Assembly (NCBI GenBank): GCA_020631315.1
Contig: JAHDHM010000017.1
Location: 1,654-13,581 of the forward strand
Reading direction: 5' to 3'
Origin: Acidimicrobiales bacterium
Lineage (GTDB): Bacteria; Actinomycetota; Acidimicrobiia; Acidimicrobiales; Poriferisodaliceae
Length of the DNA: 11,928 nucleotides
Part shown: in pieces, positions 3,376-11,882 of the stretch
How positions within the stretch are numbered: position 1 is the first letter of the stretch
How the letters are laid out: the number at the start of each line of letters is the position of its first letter
Translations under genes and position numbers: made by a program
The notes under the pieces: model-generated
The model's input: only the letters and a program-made list of their open reading frames with translations
Database searches by the model: none
Told to the model about the DNA's origin: nothing

Positions 3376-4008
3376 TCAGAGGCGGCGTAGGACGGTGACG
3401 ACCCGTCCGTAGACGTCGACCTCGTCGGAGCGGTACTCCATCGGCTCGAGGTTGGGGTTCGCCGGCAGGAGCGTGACCTTGTTGCCCTTCTTGGTGAAGG
3501 TCTTCACGGTCGCCTCTTCGCCGGGGATGCCCGCCACGACGATGTCGCCGTTGGTGGCGGTGCCCTGGCGGCGGACGACGACGAAGTCACCGTCGAGGAT
3601 GCCGGCGTCGATCATCGACTCGCCACGGACCCGGAGCATGAACAGCTCGCCGTCGCCGGTCATGTCGGCGGGGAGGGGAACGAGCTCCTCGACGTTCTCC
3701 TGGGCGAGCACGTCGGTACCGGCGGCGACGTCACCCACGAGCGGGATGTGGCGAGTCGGACGACGCTCGGCGTGGGTGAAGGAACCGGCCTCGAACGAGA
3801 CCTCGAGTGCACGGGGCTTGGTCGGGTCCCGACGGAGATAGCCGAGGTCCTCGAGCTTGCGCAGGTGCGAGTGGACGGTGGACGGCGAGGTCAGGCCGAC
3901 CGCCTCGCCGATCTCGCGCACCGACGGGGGATAGCCCCGGTCGCGCATGGCGCTGTCGATGAACTCGAGGATCCCTCGATGGCGCTCGGTCAGCTGTGGG
4001 CTGTTCAC
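3376..4008 (-). CDS. lexA: SOS response repressor LexA (autoproteolytic)
   Basis: LexA represses DNA-damage genes and cleaves itself when RecA-ssDNA filaments form. The 210-residue protein has the N-terminal winged helix-turn-helix (about 5-65, with PPSVREIGEAVGL and SPSTVHSHLRKLE). The scissile Ala96-Gly97 lies in VAAGTD, the catalytic Ser131 in GESM, and the catalytic Lys169 in ATVKTF. The S24-type peptidase domain fills the C-terminal half. I place the start at GTG 4008 because GAGGGAG stands 5 nt upstream. An in-frame TTG at 4065 would add 19 residues unlike LexA and has no ribosome site. A divergent LysM gene shares the upstream region, which carries four perfect and one degenerate LexA operator, so strong autoregulation is expected. 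Confidence 0.97.
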   Translation of the reverse strand: MNSPQLTERHRGILEFIDSAMRDRGYPPSVREIGEAVGLTSPSTVHSHLRKLEDLGYLRRDPTKPRALEVSFEAGSFTHAERRPTRHIPLVGDVAAGTDVLAQENVEELVPLPADMTGDGELFMLRVRGESMIDAGILDGDFVVVRRQGTATNGDIVVAGIPGEEATVKTFTKKGNKVTLLPANPNLEPMEYRSDEVDVYGRVVTVLRRL

Positions 4009-4036
4009 GTTGACTCCCTCGATCGGTGTGGGAACG

Positions 4037-4065
4037 ACGATAACGATCGCGCGTTCGTAATGCAA
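4037..4065 (-). promoter_or_regulatory. Putative lexA promoter
   Basis: On the minus strand TTGCAT (4060-4065) and TATCGT (4037-4042) are separated by exactly 17 bp. Transcription would start near 4030, leaving a leader of about 20 nt containing the GAGGGAG ribosome site. A degenerate LexA site lies in the spacer. The hexamers match the consensus only partly, so this is a prediction. Confidence 0.45.
4045..4056. promoter_or_regulatory. Degenerate LexA operator (GATC-N4-GTTC)
   Basis: GATCGCGCGTTC differs from GAAC-N4-GTTC by one base in the left half. It falls between the predicted -35 and -10 of lexA, where a bound repressor would block polymerase. It is weaker evidence than the four perfect sites. 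Confidence 0.4.
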
Positions 4066-4078
4066 ACACCTGTTCGAC

Positions 4079-4090
4079 GAACGGTCGTTC
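4079..4090. promoter_or_regulatory. LexA operator (SOS box) 1
   Basis: GAAC-GGTC-GTTC is a perfect match to the Gram-positive SOS box core. It lies upstream of the predicted lexA -35 and is the perfect site nearest lexA. Confidence 0.85.
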
Positions 4091-4111
4091 TGAATTTCTC
4101 TCGCCTCGCCC

Positions 4112-4140
4112 TTGACGGCGAACGAACGTTCTGGTCTCTT
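4112..4140 (+). promoter_or_regulatory. Putative promoter of the LysM gene
   Basis: TTGACG (4112-4117), a 17-bp spacer and TCTCTT (4135-4140). The -35 is good; the -10 is weak. LexA operator 2 fills the spacer and operators 3 and 4 follow just downstream, the arrangement expected for an SOS-repressed promoter. The transcript would carry a leader of about 150 nt before the ATG at 4294. Confidence 0.5.
4120..4131. promoter_or_regulatory. LexA operator (SOS box) 2
   Basis: GAAC-GAAC-GTTC is a perfect core match, placed between the predicted -35 and -10 of the LysM gene. The spacer repeats the GAAC half-site, so the site could bind in more than one register. Confidence 0.85.
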
Positions 4141-4143
4141 CTC

Positions 4144-4155
4144 GAACGAGCGTTC
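4144..4155. promoter_or_regulatory. LexA operator (SOS box) 3
   Basis: GAAC-GAGC-GTTC with flanking TC on the left gives the closest match in the window to the longer palindromic consensus TCGAAC-N4-GTTCGA. It lies at the expected start of the LysM transcript, 15 bp (start to start) from operator 4. Confidence 0.9.
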
Positions 4156-4158
4156 GCA

Positions 4159-4170
4159 GAACGTCCGTTC
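4159..4170. promoter_or_regulatory. LexA operator (SOS box) 4
   Basis: GAAC-GTCC-GTTC is a perfect core match, separated from operator 3 by only 3 bp. Two LexA dimers at this spacing could touch, which would favour cooperative binding; cooperativity is inference. Confidence 0.85.
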
Positions 4171-4293
4171 GGATCACTGCCGTGAGACCGAGAGCGCGAC
4201 GGTCATGCGGGCGGGCAGGGGTCGGTGTCCCACCCCCTCTGCACTCTTCGAATCACCACCTCAGCCCACAAGCCACGACGAGGAGCACACGAC

Positions 4294-4704
4294 ATGGCCG
4301 CAGCACTACTGCATCACGATCGCTTCGACACACCGCTCGAGCAGCGGTTGCCGCGTCACCTGCGCCTCGTCCCCGACGCTGCACCGAACGTGGCCCGTCT
4401 CGATCACCCGGCCGCAGTGGTTCCCGATGCCGCCACGATGCGCCGTCGTCGGTTCGTGGCGCTCGTCGTGGTCGTGGCGATGTGTTGGTTGCTGTTCGAG
4501 GCGGCCGTCACCGCTCGCTCGATGCTCGCCGCGCCGGTCGGCTCGGGTGAACTGACCGTCGTGGTGCAGCCGGGCGACTCGATGTGGTCCATCGCCCGGG
4601 CCCAGCAGCCGGTGGGGGACATCCGGCCGCTGGTCGACCTGCTGGTCGAGGCGAACGGCGGGACCGAGCTGGTGCCCGGCCAGCTGATCCAGCTGTCCTG
4701 GTGA
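4294..4704 (+). CDS. Small membrane-anchored LysM protein, probable SOS-induced cell-division inhibitor (YneA/DivS/ChiZ-like)
   Basis: A 136-residue protein: a polar N-terminal tail (1-49), a basic stop RRRR (50-53), one hydrophobic membrane segment (about 54-74), then a single LysM domain (about 89-135, with QPGDSMWSIA and a final VPGQLIQLSW) expected outside the membrane to touch peptidoglycan. The ATG at 4294 is chosen because GAGGAG stands 8 nt upstream; the frame extends to a GTG at 4225 without a ribosome site. It is divergent from lexA behind an array of LexA operators. In Bacillus (YneA), Corynebacterium (DivS) and Mycobacterium (ChiZ/Rv2719c), small membrane proteins next to lexA, mostly with a LysM domain, halt septation during the SOS response. 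By position and architecture this is the local counterpart, but no residue-level proof is possible here. Its long cytoplasmic tail is worth noting. Confidence 0.85.
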   Translation: MAAALLHHDRFDTPLEQRLPRHLRLVPDAAPNVARLDHPAAVVPDAATMRRRRFVALVVVVAMCWLLFEAAVTARSMLAAPVGSGELTVVVQPGDSMWSIARAQQPVGDIRPLVDLLVEANGGTELVPGQLIQLSW

Positions 4705-6024: not shown

Positions 6025-8823
6025 ATGTCCATCGCACCTGATCGCAACGAGCTCGGTCTGCGACGGCACTTCACGATCGAGGGCATCTCTCCCTACGACG
6101 AGGTCGCCTGGGAGCGGCGTGACGCCCGCCTGACCGACTGGCGCGACGGCAGCGTGAGCTTCGAGCAGCTCGACGTCGAGTTCCCCGCCTCCTGGTCCGT
6201 CAACGCGACGAACATCGTCGCCCAGAAGTACTTTCGCGGCGCCCTCGGTACGCCCGAACGCGAGTCCAGCCTGCGCCAGGTGATCGACCGGGTCGTCGGC
6301 ACCATCACCAAGTGGGGCGCCGCCGACGGCTACTTCGGTGACGGCCCCGAAGCCGACGAGGCTGCGGCGTCGTTCGCCGCCGAGCTCACCTGGTTGCTGC
6401 TGCACCAGCGAGTCGCCTTCAACTCGCCGGTCTGGTTCAACATCGGTGTCCCCGGCGCCCGTCAGCAGGCGTCGGCGTGCTTCATCCTGAGCGTCGACGA
6501 CAGCCTCGACGACATCCTCGAGTGGTTTGCCGAGGAAGGTCGCATCTTCAAGGGTGGCTCCGGCTCGGGCGTGAACCTGTCGAAGCTGCGCGGCGCCGCC
6601 GAGGCGATCCGCGGTGGCGGCCAGGCCTCCGGCCCCGTCAGCTTCATGCGTGGCGCCGACGCGTCCGCCGGCACGATCAAGTCCGGCGGCACGACCCGGC
6701 GTGCGGCGAAGATGGTCGTCCTCGACGTCGATCACCCCGACGTCGAGGAGTTCATCTGGTGCAAGGCCCGCGAGGAGCGCAAGGCCCGGGTCCTGCGCGA
6801 CGCCGGTTTCGAGATGGATCTCGACGGCGCCGACAGCCACTCGATCCAGTACCAGAACGCCAACAACTCGGTCCGCCTGTCCGACGACTTCATGGCCGCA
6901 GTCGAAGCCGACGAGGACTGGGACCTGATGGGTCGCCTCGACGGTGAGGTCCTCGAGTCCGTGCCTGCCCGGCGGATCTTCCGGGCCATCGCCGAAGCCG
7001 CATGGGAGTGCGCAGATCCCGGCATCCAGTTCGACACCACGATCAACGGCTGGCACACGACACCCAACGCCGGCCGCATCTCGGCCAGCAACCCGTGCTC
7101 GGAGTACCTGCACCTGGACGACTCCGCCTGCAACCTCGCCAGCCTGAACCTGCTGCCGTTCCTCTCCGACGACCTCGAGTTCGACATCGCCGGCTTCGCG
7201 CACGCGGTGGAGGTCACCTTCACCGCGATGGACATCCTCGTGGGCCACGCGGACTACCCGACCGAGGCCATCGCCAAGAACACTCGGGCGTACCGGCAGC
7301 TCGGCATCGGCTACACCAACCTGGGCGCCACGCTCATGGCGCAGGGCATGGCCTACGACTCCGACGCAGGCCGCTCGTTCGCCGCGGGCGTCACCGCCCT
7401 GATGAGTGGTACGGCCTACGCCACCTCCGCACGGCTCGCAGCACAGCTCGCGCCGTTCGACGGATTCGCTGCCGATCGCGACGGCACCACGGCCGTGATC
7501 GAACGACACCGCGACGCCGTCGCTGCGATCGACGAGGAGCAGGTCGACCTCGGCCTGCTGAGTGCGGCACAGCAGGCGTGGGATGCAGCCGTCGAGGGCG
7601 TGCAGCTCGTCGGTGTTCGCAACGCACAGGCGTCAGTGCTCGCTCCGACCGGAACGATCTCGTTCATGATGGACTGCGACACCACGGGCATCGAGCCTGA
7701 CCTCGGCCTCGTGAAGTACAAGAAGCTGGTCGGCGGCGGCACCATGACGATCGTCAACCAGACGGTGCCGCGGGCGCTGCGCCAGCTCGGCTACTCCGCC
7801 ACCTCGATCGCGTCGATCAGCGACCACATCCTCGAACACGGGTCGATCGTCGGCGCCCCCGGTCTCGACCCGGCCCACCTGCCGGTCTTCGCCTGCTCGA
7901 TGGGTGACAACACGATCGGCCACATGGGCCACATCGAGATGATGGCCGCAGTCCAGCCCTTCTTGTCGGGTGCCATCTCCAAGACCGTCAACCTCCCCGA
8001 AGAGGCGACCGTCGACGACATCGAGGAGCTGCACCTCGAGGCCTGGAAGCTCGGCCTCAAGGCCGTCGCCGTCTACCGCGACAACTGCAAGGTCGGGCAG
8101 CCGCTCTCGACCAGCAAGGACGACGCAGCAGCCGACGCCGGTGACTCCGTCGTCGACTCGCCTGTCGGCGCCGTCGAGGCGATCACGGCACCGGCGCCTG
8201 CGCCGGTCACCCCCCGCCGGGAGTCGCTGCCCCGCACGCGTGCCAGCCGGACCTTCTCGTTCCGGGTGGCGGACTGCCATGGCTTCATGACCGTCGGCGA
8301 GTACGACGACGGCCGACCGGGTGAGATCTTCCTCACGGTCGCGAAGCAGGGGTCCACGCTCGCCGGCATCATGGACGCGTTCGCCATCTCGGTGAGCCAC
8401 GGCCTCCAGTACGGGGTGCCGCTCGCCGCCTACGTCGAGGCGTATTCGAACGTGCGCTTCGAGCCGGCCGGCATCACCGATGACCCGGATCTGCGCATCG
8501 CCACCTCACTGGTCGACTACCTGTTCCGCCGCCTCGCGCTGGAGTACCTGTCGGTCGAGGAGCGCAGCTCGCTCGGCATCCTCACGACGGCCGAACGAAC
8601 CGAACCGACGTTGCCGGGCTTCGAGACCGTCGCGGTCCCGAGCAGTTCCGGTGCCGATCTGGCCGGGTCCGACGGCATCACCGCCGTCGTGCCGTCGTCG
8701 GCACCTGCCCCGTCGGCGAACGCCGATTCGGCTCCGCTGTGCTTCACGTGTGGCGACGTGATGGCGCGCGCCGGTTCCTGCTACACGTGTCGCTCGTGCG
8801 GCTCGACCAGCGGCTGCAGCTGA
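6025..8823 (+). CDS. nrdJ: Adenosylcobalamin-dependent (class II) ribonucleoside-diphosphate reductase
   Basis: Reduces ribonucleotides to deoxyribonucleotides in the cytoplasm, using vitamin B12 rather than oxygen to make its radical. The 932 residues show the class II layout: an N-terminal region, the ten-stranded barrel with NPCSEY (N356, C358 as radical cysteine, E360), and the redox partners C152 (SACF) and C369, which keep the 11-residue spacing known from Thermotoga NrdJ. A proline/alanine-rich linker (about 700-740) precedes a TSCPD domain (about 742-843). A C-terminal zinc-ribbon-like tail follows, with C906, C909, C919, C922, C925 and C931, which delivers reducing electrons in this family. 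ATG 6025 has AGGAGG about 7 nt upstream. The upstream region carries DnaA boxes. The neighbourhood lexA-nrdJ is shared with Streptomyces, but no nrdR is present between them here. Confidence 0.97.
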   Translation: MSIAPDRNELGLRRHFTIEGISPYDEVAWERRDARLTDWRDGSVSFEQLDVEFPASWSVNATNIVAQKYFRGALGTPERESSLRQVIDRVVGTITKWGAADGYFGDGPEADEAAASFAAELTWLLLHQRVAFNSPVWFNIGVPGARQQASACFILSVDDSLDDILEWFAEEGRIFKGGSGSGVNLSKLRGAAEAIRGGGQASGPVSFMRGADASAGTIKSGGTTRRAAKMVVLDVDHPDVEEFIWCKAREERKARVLRDAGFEMDLDGADSHSIQYQNANNSVRLSDDFMAAVEADEDWDLMGRLDGEVLESVPARRIFRAIAEAAWECADPGIQFDTTINGWHTTPNAGRISASNPCSEYLHLDDSACNLASLNLLPFLSDDLEFDIAGFAHAVEVTFTAMDILVGHADYPTEAIAKNTRAYRQLGIGYTNLGATLMAQGMAYDSDAGRSFAAGVTALMSGTAYATSARLAAQLAPFDGFAADRDGTTAVIERHRDAVAAIDEEQVDLGLLSAAQQAWDAAVEGVQLVGVRNAQASVLAPTGTISFMMDCDTTGIEPDLGLVKYKKLVGGGTMTIVNQTVPRALRQLGYSATSIASISDHILEHGSIVGAPGLDPAHLPVFACSMGDNTIGHMGHIEMMAAVQPFLSGAISKTVNLPEEATVDDIEELHLEAWKLGLKAVAVYRDNCKVGQPLSTSKDDAAADAGDSVVDSPVGAVEAITAPAPAPVTPRRESLPRTRASRTFSFRVADCHGFMTVGEYDDGRPGEIFLTVAKQGSTLAGIMDAFAISVSHGLQYGVPLAAYVEAYSNVRFEPAGITDDPDLRIATSLVDYLFRRLALEYLSVEERSSLGILTTAERTEPTLPGFETVAVPSSSGADLAGSDGITAVVPSSAPAPSANADSAPLCFTCGDVMARAGSCYTCRSCGSTSGCS

Positions 8824-11267: not shown

Positions 11268-11882
11268 GTGGCGAAGCTGCGCTTCTACTTCGGGACCATG
11301 GGTGCGGGGAAGAGCACCATGGCCCTGCAGATCCACCACAACCTGTGTCAGGCGCAGCGCGGCATGCTCGTGACCCAGCACGACCGCGAGGGCGCCGCCG
11401 TGTCCTCGGCGTTGGGTGTGTCGGCGTCGGCCGAGGTCATCGGTCCACACGACGACCTGTGGAGCCTCGTGGACACCCACGCCACCGCCCACGGCGAACT
11501 CGGGTTCGTGATCTGCGACGAGGCGCAGTTCTACCGAAGCGAGCAGATCGACCAGCTGGTTCGTGTCGTCGACCATCTCGATGTCGACGTCTACGCCTTC
11601 GGTCTCCTCAGCGACTTCCGTGGTCGTCTGTTCGACGGCACCACCCGCCTGCTGGAGGTCGCCGACGAGCGCCACGAGATCCAGGTGCAGTCACGGTGCT
11701 GGTGCGGCGAGCTGGCCACGCACAACGCCCGTCTCGTGAACGGTGTGCAGGTCTACGACGGCGATGTCGTCGTGGTCGACGACGGCACGACCGCCGACGT
11801 CACCTACGAGCTGCGCTGCCGCCGCCACTGGAACGAGGGCACCAGCGCCCCGAGCGCCGAACCCCTCCGCAGTGTCGTCTGA
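11268..11882 (+). CDS. tdk: Thymidine kinase (TK1-type)
   Basis: Phosphorylates thymidine to dTMP with ATP in the salvage pathway. The 204-residue protein has the P-loop GTMGAGKST (9-17), DEAQF (84-88, with E85 as the expected catalytic base), and DVYAFGLLSDFRGRLF (107-122). The zinc-binding set is C144, C146 (CWCG), C184 and H187 (CRRH). The segment THNARLVNGVQV is the lasso-like part that holds thymidine in this family. Length and motifs fit the TK1-type enzymes of actinobacteria. Start GTG 11268 has GGAG 5 nt upstream; the frame is open far upstream, but only as a shadow of the preceding gene. The stop codon is part of the first unit of a 16-bp tandem repeat, so the last residues (SVV) are encoded partly by repeat DNA. 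Confidence 0.95.
   Translation: MAKLRFYFGTMGAGKSTMALQIHHNLCQAQRGMLVTQHDREGAAVSSALGVSASAEVIGPHDDLWSLVDTHATAHGELGFVICDEAQFYRSEQIDQLVRVVDHLDVDVYAFGLLSDFRGRLFDGTTRLLEVADERHEIQVQSRCWCGELATHNARLVNGVQVYDGDVVVVDDGTTADVTYELRCRRHWNEGTSAPSAEPLRSVV

Follow-up and report, generated by a model that had tools for sequence, protein, structure and literature searches.

Six LexA-type boxes between divergent lexA and LysM genes of an Acidimicrobiales bacterium: a probable operator cluster for two back-to-back SOS promoters

The region between lexA and a divergently oriented gene encoding a LysM-domain protein very probably carries a cluster of LexA operators that controls two back-to-back SOS promoters, as judged from the sequence and its counterparts in related genomes. 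The window, i.e., the whole analyzed stretch of 11,928 nucleotides, contained six LexA-type boxes within positions 4045–4170, of which four were exact and two had one mismatch (4045 and 4064–4075), with start-to-start spacings along the array of 19, 15, 41, 24, and 15 bp. A previous sequence-only reading had proposed LexA-type operators common to two divergent SOS genes, which agrees with the retention of several boxes in relatives, and had listed four perfect sites and one degenerate site; all five were found in place, but the count was too low, as the box at 4064–4075 had been missed. As for the extra half-sites described around the array, the one at 4072–4075 turned out to be the right half of this sixth box (box E below), and GAAC at 4032–4035 was present, but found no support as an operator. 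The features of the region were as follows:

3376–4008, minus strand: lexA coding sequence, with the GTG start at 4008 chosen by the ribosome-binding sequence GAGGGAG
4037–4042, minus strand: putative lexA −10 element, TATCGT, 17 bp from the TTG of the box at 4064
4045–4056, no strand assigned: LexA box F, one mismatch, in the lexA promoter spacer
4060–4065, minus strand: putative lexA −35 element, TTGCAT, whose TTG is formed by the last three bases of GTTTG in box E
4064–4075, no strand assigned: LexA box E, one mismatch, overlapping the lexA −35 element
4079–4090, no strand assigned: LexA box D, exact, between both −35 elements, 15 bp from box E
4112–4117, plus strand: putative LysM −35 element, TTGACG, corresponding to TTGAC before the box in relatives
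4120–4131, no strand assigned: LexA box C, exact, in the LysM promoter spacer
4135–4140, plus strand: possible weak LysM −10 element, TCTCTT, placed by position only, 17 bp from the −35 element and lacking the TAnnnT pattern
4144–4155, no strand assigned: LexA box B, exact, at the expected LysM transcription start
4159–4170, no strand assigned: LexA box A, exact, in the early transcribed LysM leader, 15 bp from box B
4226–4247, plus strand: PafBC-like second promoter motif of putative function in the LysM leader, TGTCCC-N10-CACTCT
4294–4704, plus strand: LysM gene (136 aa), with the ATG start at 4294 chosen by GAGGAG

The lexA product scored 230.4 bits with the NCBIfam model TIGR00498 (cut-off 110.95) and contained the Pfam domains LexA_DNA_bind (PF01726) and Peptidase_S24 (PF00717); that is, the DNA-binding and S24 autocleavage peptidase domains of a LexA repressor were both present, above the curated cut-off. 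On the 3′ side of lexA, cysS and a gene for a protein without a Pfam match were located. A search with the LexA protein gave 393 confirmed loci, and among the best 80 of these, which were taken as the lexA relatives, the closest belonged to Acidimicrobiia-type genomes (82% for L001), in agreement with the LexA tree. Three loci titled as Bifidobacterium breve MAG (L018, L019, and L021) carried lexA regions of the Acidimicrobiia kind, the species label being probably wrong; in L018 and L019, the boxes were at the same places as in strain IMCC26207 (L020).

Between the divergent genes, a pattern search of the window revealed exact GAAC-N4-GTTC sites at 4079, 4120, 4144, and 4159, and the whole window contained five. 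Chance is a poor explanation for the array, because 200 shuffled windows averaged 0.15 exact sites with a maximum of two; sites with at most one mismatch numbered 14 in the window, against 4.55 on average and 11 at most after shuffling. The fifth, lone exact site (GAACTCGGGTTC) was at 11496–11507 within the thymidine kinase reading frame and is probably a chance occurrence.

The GAAC-N4-GTTC motif behaves as the LexA box of the class, since single copies also stand at recA and further SOS genes, as expected of an actinobacterial SOS box, which makes the sites putative LexA operators. Upstream of recA in class genomes, one box was found at 27 of 29 loci, two boxes at one locus, and none at one locus (29 of 30 loci, drawn from 58 genomes with a match). 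A single box each was also present at seven other SOS loci, namely, three error-prone polymerase genes, imuA′, the DNA polymerase IV gene, uvrA, and a pcrA-like helicase gene; these had been picked by CGAAC-N4-GTTCG in five genomes and are informative only for the lack of a second box. The 35 motif loci comprised two belonging to the lexA array of one genome, three with two boxes (L091, L207, and L212), and 30 with a single box, many of the last being probably chance sites inside genes; seven genes among these loci were named by family search and three, all recA, by eye. If GAACGNNCGTTC-type sites served another repressor with a similar palindrome, LexA would use only the box at 4064. The presence of G..C inside all four exact sites (GAACG..CGTTC) versus A..T in the box at 4064 is consistent with such a division, as is the suggestion, made in the available part of PMC8151990, that ArsR-type repressors share the SOS boxes of M. 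tuberculosis; however, A..T and G..C centers were interchangeable at matching positions in relatives and also at the single recA box, and a second repressor of this kind is extremely unlikely.

The strength of the boxes was evaluated with a scoring matrix built from the 29 recA boxes of related genomes, which on their own matrix had a median score of 21.4 and a lowest score of 15.9. The window boxes at 4144, 4064, 4159, 4120, 4079, and 4045 scored 19.1, 16.5, 14.1, 14.0, 13.6, and 13.5, respectively. Consequently, the earlier distinction between perfect and degenerate sites was misleading, as the one-mismatch box at 4064, which reads CGAACAGGTGTTTG on the lexA strand, outscored the exact sites at 4159, 4120, and 4079. 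In three of the four exact window sites, the outer C or G was missing on one side. In the 45 related regions with both anchors, LysM-spacer and LysM-downstream boxes had median scores of 20.9 and 20.8, against 16.5 at the lexA −35 element and 15.1 in the lexA spacer. All six window boxes were below the recA and LysM-side medians, and four were below the lowest recA box, which weakens the suggestion of very tight LysM repression; by their sequences, the LysM side tends to hold the stronger boxes in relatives, those of the window lying below them.

For the comparison with relatives, the 80 loci and the window were reduced to 79 regions with at least 200 nt upstream (L038 and L078 dropped) and then to 72 non-redundant regions (seven near-duplicates removed), and a box was counted if it was exact or had one mismatch and was flanked by C and G. 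One, two, three, four, five, and six boxes were found in 1, 1, 12, 41, 15, and 2 of the 72 regions, respectively, the window included (shuffled mean 0.034). At least three boxes were thus retained in 70 of the 72 regions, the opposite of the single conserved site that the sequence-only reading had named as speaking against it. In an evenly drawn class sample (50 of 58 genomes with lexA), zero to five boxes occurred in 2, 6, 7, 14, 18, and 3 of 50 regions, i.e., at least three boxes in 35 regions. The array is therefore typical of the class, not universal, because the remaining 15 of the 50 class regions had zero to two boxes. In the phylum sample (49 of 58; three loci were in both samples), zero to five boxes occurred in 3, 20, 4, 11, 9, and 2 of 49 regions, one box being the commonest number. 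The relatives represent a natural series of promoters with zero to six boxes for probing the role of extra LexA operators.

A generic promoter and terminator scan of positions 3950–4350 found nothing, and the promoter elements were assigned by comparison with relatives. Upstream of lexA, a box with a GTTTG instead of a GTTCG end was found in 49 of the 72 related regions, in 37 of the 50 class regions, and in 30 of the 49 phylum regions. The spacing TTG-N17-TAnnnT from this box (counted as 18 when measured from the T before TTG) was observed in 45 of the 49 regions, with a rate of 0.37% at shifted positions, and at 51 of 64 loci in the two further samples. The recurrent mismatch of the lexA box can be attributed to the box supplying the lexA −35 element, so that LexA boxes would double as promoter elements. 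The degenerate site at 4045 lies inside the lexA promoter, as had been proposed, namely, in the spacer between the putative −35 and −10 elements. Boxes within 26 bp downstream of the −35 box were present in 23 of the 45 regions with both anchors and were exact in none of the 23; those 17 bp past the GTTTG box ended in GATCG (nine) or GCTCG (two), and those 24 bp past it ended in GTACG in 10 of 10 cases, with TACG beginning the −10 element. The window counterpart, the box at 4045, belongs to the GATCG type, at a distance of 19 bp. As defined here, box E cannot be exact, and the comparison of exactness is informative for the other box classes only.

The LysM protein had a short N-terminus, one predicted transmembrane stretch (FVALVVVVAMCWLLFEAAV; hydropathy maximum of 2.6 over 19 residues), and a C-terminal LysM domain just above the Pfam cut-off (21.2 versus 20.9 bits). 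This is the layout of YneA-, ChiZ-, and DivS-like proteins, and by analogy with YneA, ChiZ, and DivS, the product probably delays cell division. The placement of the site at 4120 within the LysM promoter was borne out on one side, as the box lies just behind a conserved −35 element, but the −10 element of the window is weak. TTGAC stood immediately ahead of a box in 60 of the 72 regions. In 47 of these, the box begins 8 nt after the first base of TTGAC, which is also the distance in the window. The −10 element was poorly conserved, with no nAnnnT at 15–19 bp in 32 of the 60 relatives. Of the 64 additional boxes located up to 80 bp past box C, 63 lie 22–50 bp away (4144 and 4159 in the window), where, judging by the promoter positions, they are expected to cover or closely follow the LysM transcript start; the distance of 24 bp, that of box B, is one of the two commonest (9 of 64 boxes).

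Beyond the LysM gene, the minus strand carries a RibD-like reductase gene, and the plus strand carries nrdJ (B12-dependent ribonucleotide reductase, window positions 6025–8823), a DUF11 protein gene, and a thymidine kinase gene. In some relatives (L101, L117, and L037), an NrdR-like frame was seen by eye after the divergent gene, and in others (L142 and L146), a ribonucleotide reductase-like frame was seen there by eye.

The segment at 4116–4144 was a 72% identical copy of that at 4075–4103, i.e., 29 nt around box D are repeated around box C. Such a repeat would fit the assumption that one or two boxes are functional and the others are leftovers of promoter duplication or of binding-site turnover, which is also in line with the low scores of four window boxes relative to the lowest recA box, with the range of zero to six boxes across relatives, and with the reported dependence of M. 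tuberculosis lexA on a sole box (PMC8151990, available part). Leftovers are nevertheless decidedly unlikely: boxes C, A/B, and E were kept across relatives despite diverged flanks (in the 45 regions with both anchors, box C was exact in 44 and the A/B boxes in 41 of 47 cases), and the retention of at least three boxes in nearly all of the 72 regions also argues against them.

Retaining the operator cluster with two back-to-back promoters as the preferred explanation, we infer the following course of LexA binding, promoter use, derepression, division arrest, and PafBC action. LexA on box E would cover the lexA −35 element and LexA on box F the lexA spacer, resulting in autorepression by imperfect boxes, while LexA on boxes C, B, and A would cover the LysM promoter spacer, the start site, and the early transcribed region, with box D placed between both −35 elements. 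Upon DNA damage, RecA would promote LexA self-cleavage, the boxes would become empty, and lexA and the LysM gene would be expressed; the LysM protein, with its transmembrane stretch and LysM domain, would then probably delay cell division. The PafBC-like promoter in the LysM leader would probably provide a LexA-independent route to the LysM gene.

This explanation is compatible with a cooperative binding of LexA to closely set boxes as side-by-side dimers, which would make the LysM gene a sharp threshold switch; cooperativity had been raised in the sequence-only reading. The 15 bp spacing, corresponding to 14-bp operators 1 bp apart, recurred in 28 successive pairs in the 72 regions and at two places of the array, A–B in the window and D–E (10 of the 49 GTTTG-box regions have a further box upstream of box E at exactly this distance), the window having both; moreover, exact box pairs 15 bp apart gave four matches in 296 class genomes, all upstream of lexA. 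However, spacings of 17, 24, 29, 30, and 33 bp were also common (12, 24, 33, 22, and 12 pairs in the 72 regions, respectively), and a single geometry is therefore not required. In addition, 15 bp is by our reckoning about 1.4 helical turns, which would place the dimers on different faces, and LexA of B. thuringiensis bound two adjacent or overlapping boxes of phage GIL01 independently, with no cooperativity (PMC4551915, available part). Cooperative binding is thus considered unlikely. A more far-reaching proposal, in which a cooperative LexA array covers both promoters with 15-bp-spaced dimers as its unit and one damage threshold, and the PafBC promoter bypasses the closed array, is quite improbable; if true, such a switch would depart from the repression through independent boxes that is usually assumed for LexA. 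In Streptomyces venezuelae, a graded response was ascribed to distinct box affinities (PMC9380542, available part).

Exact box pairs 15–45 bp apart were found in 185 of the 296 class genomes (9 of 296 for the reversed-pattern control). The pairing is not unique to lexA, as pairs of this range also occurred elsewhere, one of them at recA. Among the matches listed, nine genomes with a known place of lexA had 15 pairs, eight at lexA and seven elsewhere, and a sixteenth pair among the matches listed was in G056, where no lexA was found. Two exact boxes 19–20 bp apart with TTGAC between them (on either strand) were observed in G007 (C1:1704166), G024 (C7:67220), G056 (C9:179973), and G162 (C1:1147268).

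A divergent LysM relative adjoined 71 of the 80 loci according to tblastn, and a profile built from 55 of those regions found LysM in 73 of the 76 regions that were long enough, the window included. In the phylum sample, at least three boxes accompanied a divergent LysM gene in 19 of 23 cases, versus 3 of 26 loci lacking the gene (Fisher test, p = 5 × 10−7); the corresponding counts in the class sample were 31 of 40 versus 2 of 8. A GTTTG box was found at 14 of the 18 single-box loci without LysM in the phylum sample. The LexA tree of 56 rows provided six well-supported independent contrasts, of which three agreed, one was against, and two were ties (p = 0.625). An explanation of the array by the LysM gene was therefore rejected, since the strong raw association was non-significant over independent lineages; the link between LysM and the array is inseparable from shared ancestry, because the independent lineages are too few. 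Three or four boxes without a LysM match were found in L101, L117, and L126 of the phylum sample, in L142 and L146 of the class sample, and in L037 and L069; at the arrays of L101, L117, L142, and L146, another small putative membrane protein was seen by eye in place of LysM.

The yneA gene of B. subtilis and the divS gene of C. glutamicum are divergent from lexA, and Rv2719c (chiZ) of M. tuberculosis presumably has a LysM domain. The E. coli LexA operator differs in sequence, and no divergent LysM gene is known at E. coli lexA. The window has the elements of an M. tuberculosis-type region, namely, lexA, a LysM gene divergent from it, and three or more boxes between them (six in the window), and the multi-box plan is already reported for M. 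tuberculosis in the available part of PMC8151990. According to that text, there are four known SOS boxes at lexA; apart from the sole box on which lexA seems to depend, the other three together with a PafBC motif act on the divergent operon, which is printed as Rv2019c–Rv2017c in one place and as rv2719c in another. The title of a paper of 2002 by Dullaghan, cited there, names "multiple SOS boxes". By the published description, the lexA–Rv2719c region resembles the window in that a division regulator is encoded opposite to lexA and several SOS boxes stand at lexA; its PafBC motif, which points away from lexA, may have a PafBC-like counterpart in the window. The window differs in its six boxes, the one-mismatch ones included, and in organism and class, the sequences being compared by description; features of its own are a box inside the lexA spacer, a box between both −35 elements, and the 15-bp pairs. 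The YneA and DivS proteins are SOS-induced division inhibitors (PMC4211646, available part); YneA consists of one transmembrane domain and an extracellular LysM domain, acts on FtsW through the membrane domain, and requires the LysM domain (PMC13396833, available part). The window gene is like those of the B. subtilis lexA–yneA and C. glutamicum divS–lexA regions in topology and in the LysM domain, as far as these are described there. The E. coli lexA promoter has two LexA operators (PMC9210283, available part) and, like the window, more than one. A literature search on LexA in the class and on comparative genomics of the LexA regulon in Actinobacteria found no SOS study in Acidimicrobiia among the titles and the beginnings of abstracts. 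The data suggest a wide occurrence in Acidimicrobiia of the mycobacterial plan, in which several LexA boxes and a PafBC-like input lie between lexA and the gene of a division inhibitor.

One form of the PafBC motif of M. tuberculosis is given as TGTCAC-N10-TAnnnT in the available part of PMC8151990, and the window copy, TGTCCC-N10-CACTCT, which the sequence-only reading had missed, differs from the published form. Published PafBC forms (TGTCGG/AG/AC-N10-TAnnnT) were found in none of the 72 regions when the 350 nt upstream of lexA were searched on the LysM strand (reversed control, 0). A relaxed motif, TGTC.CACC, was derived from sequence enrichment and is thus no blind test; it was present in 37 of the 72 regions in the 220 nt that follow the array, and in 43 of the 72 when 800 nt from lexA were considered on the LysM strand. 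The hexamer 10 nt after the first six bases of the motif had a final T in 43 of 43 regions and matched nAnnnT in 32 of 43; in at least five of these 43 regions (L063, L065, L069, L071, and L076), the counted copy was nearer to lexA than the LysM leader. At recA, a related motif, TGTCNC-N10-TAnnnT, was found in 19 of 29 leaders (a count without a control). The extended form TGTCACACC-N7-TAnnnT was found in 46 of the 60 class genomes searched, against none of the 60 for the reversed control, with 24 copies in G008; among the matches listed, at least eight stood just upstream of lexA and were directed away from it (G006, G013, G023, G027, G031, G051, G054, and G055). Two WYL-domain genes approximately 1 kb apart, as expected of PafB and PafC, were present in all six genomes checked. 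Taken as sequence evidence, this suggests a PafBC regulon with an extended TGTCACACC consensus in Acidimicrobiia.

In the LysM leaders of L010, L017, L021, L032, L050, and L064, the PafBC-like −10 element (e.g., GAGAAT) was seen by eye to overlap a ribosome-binding-like GGAG. The LysM message from the PafBC-like promoter may be leaderless, because its −10 element lies approximately 7 nt before the start codon in several loci. Finally, TGTCACACC-N7-TAnnnT was also observed upstream of recA (L219–L246), and a related form was present in the LysM leaders (L001–L080).
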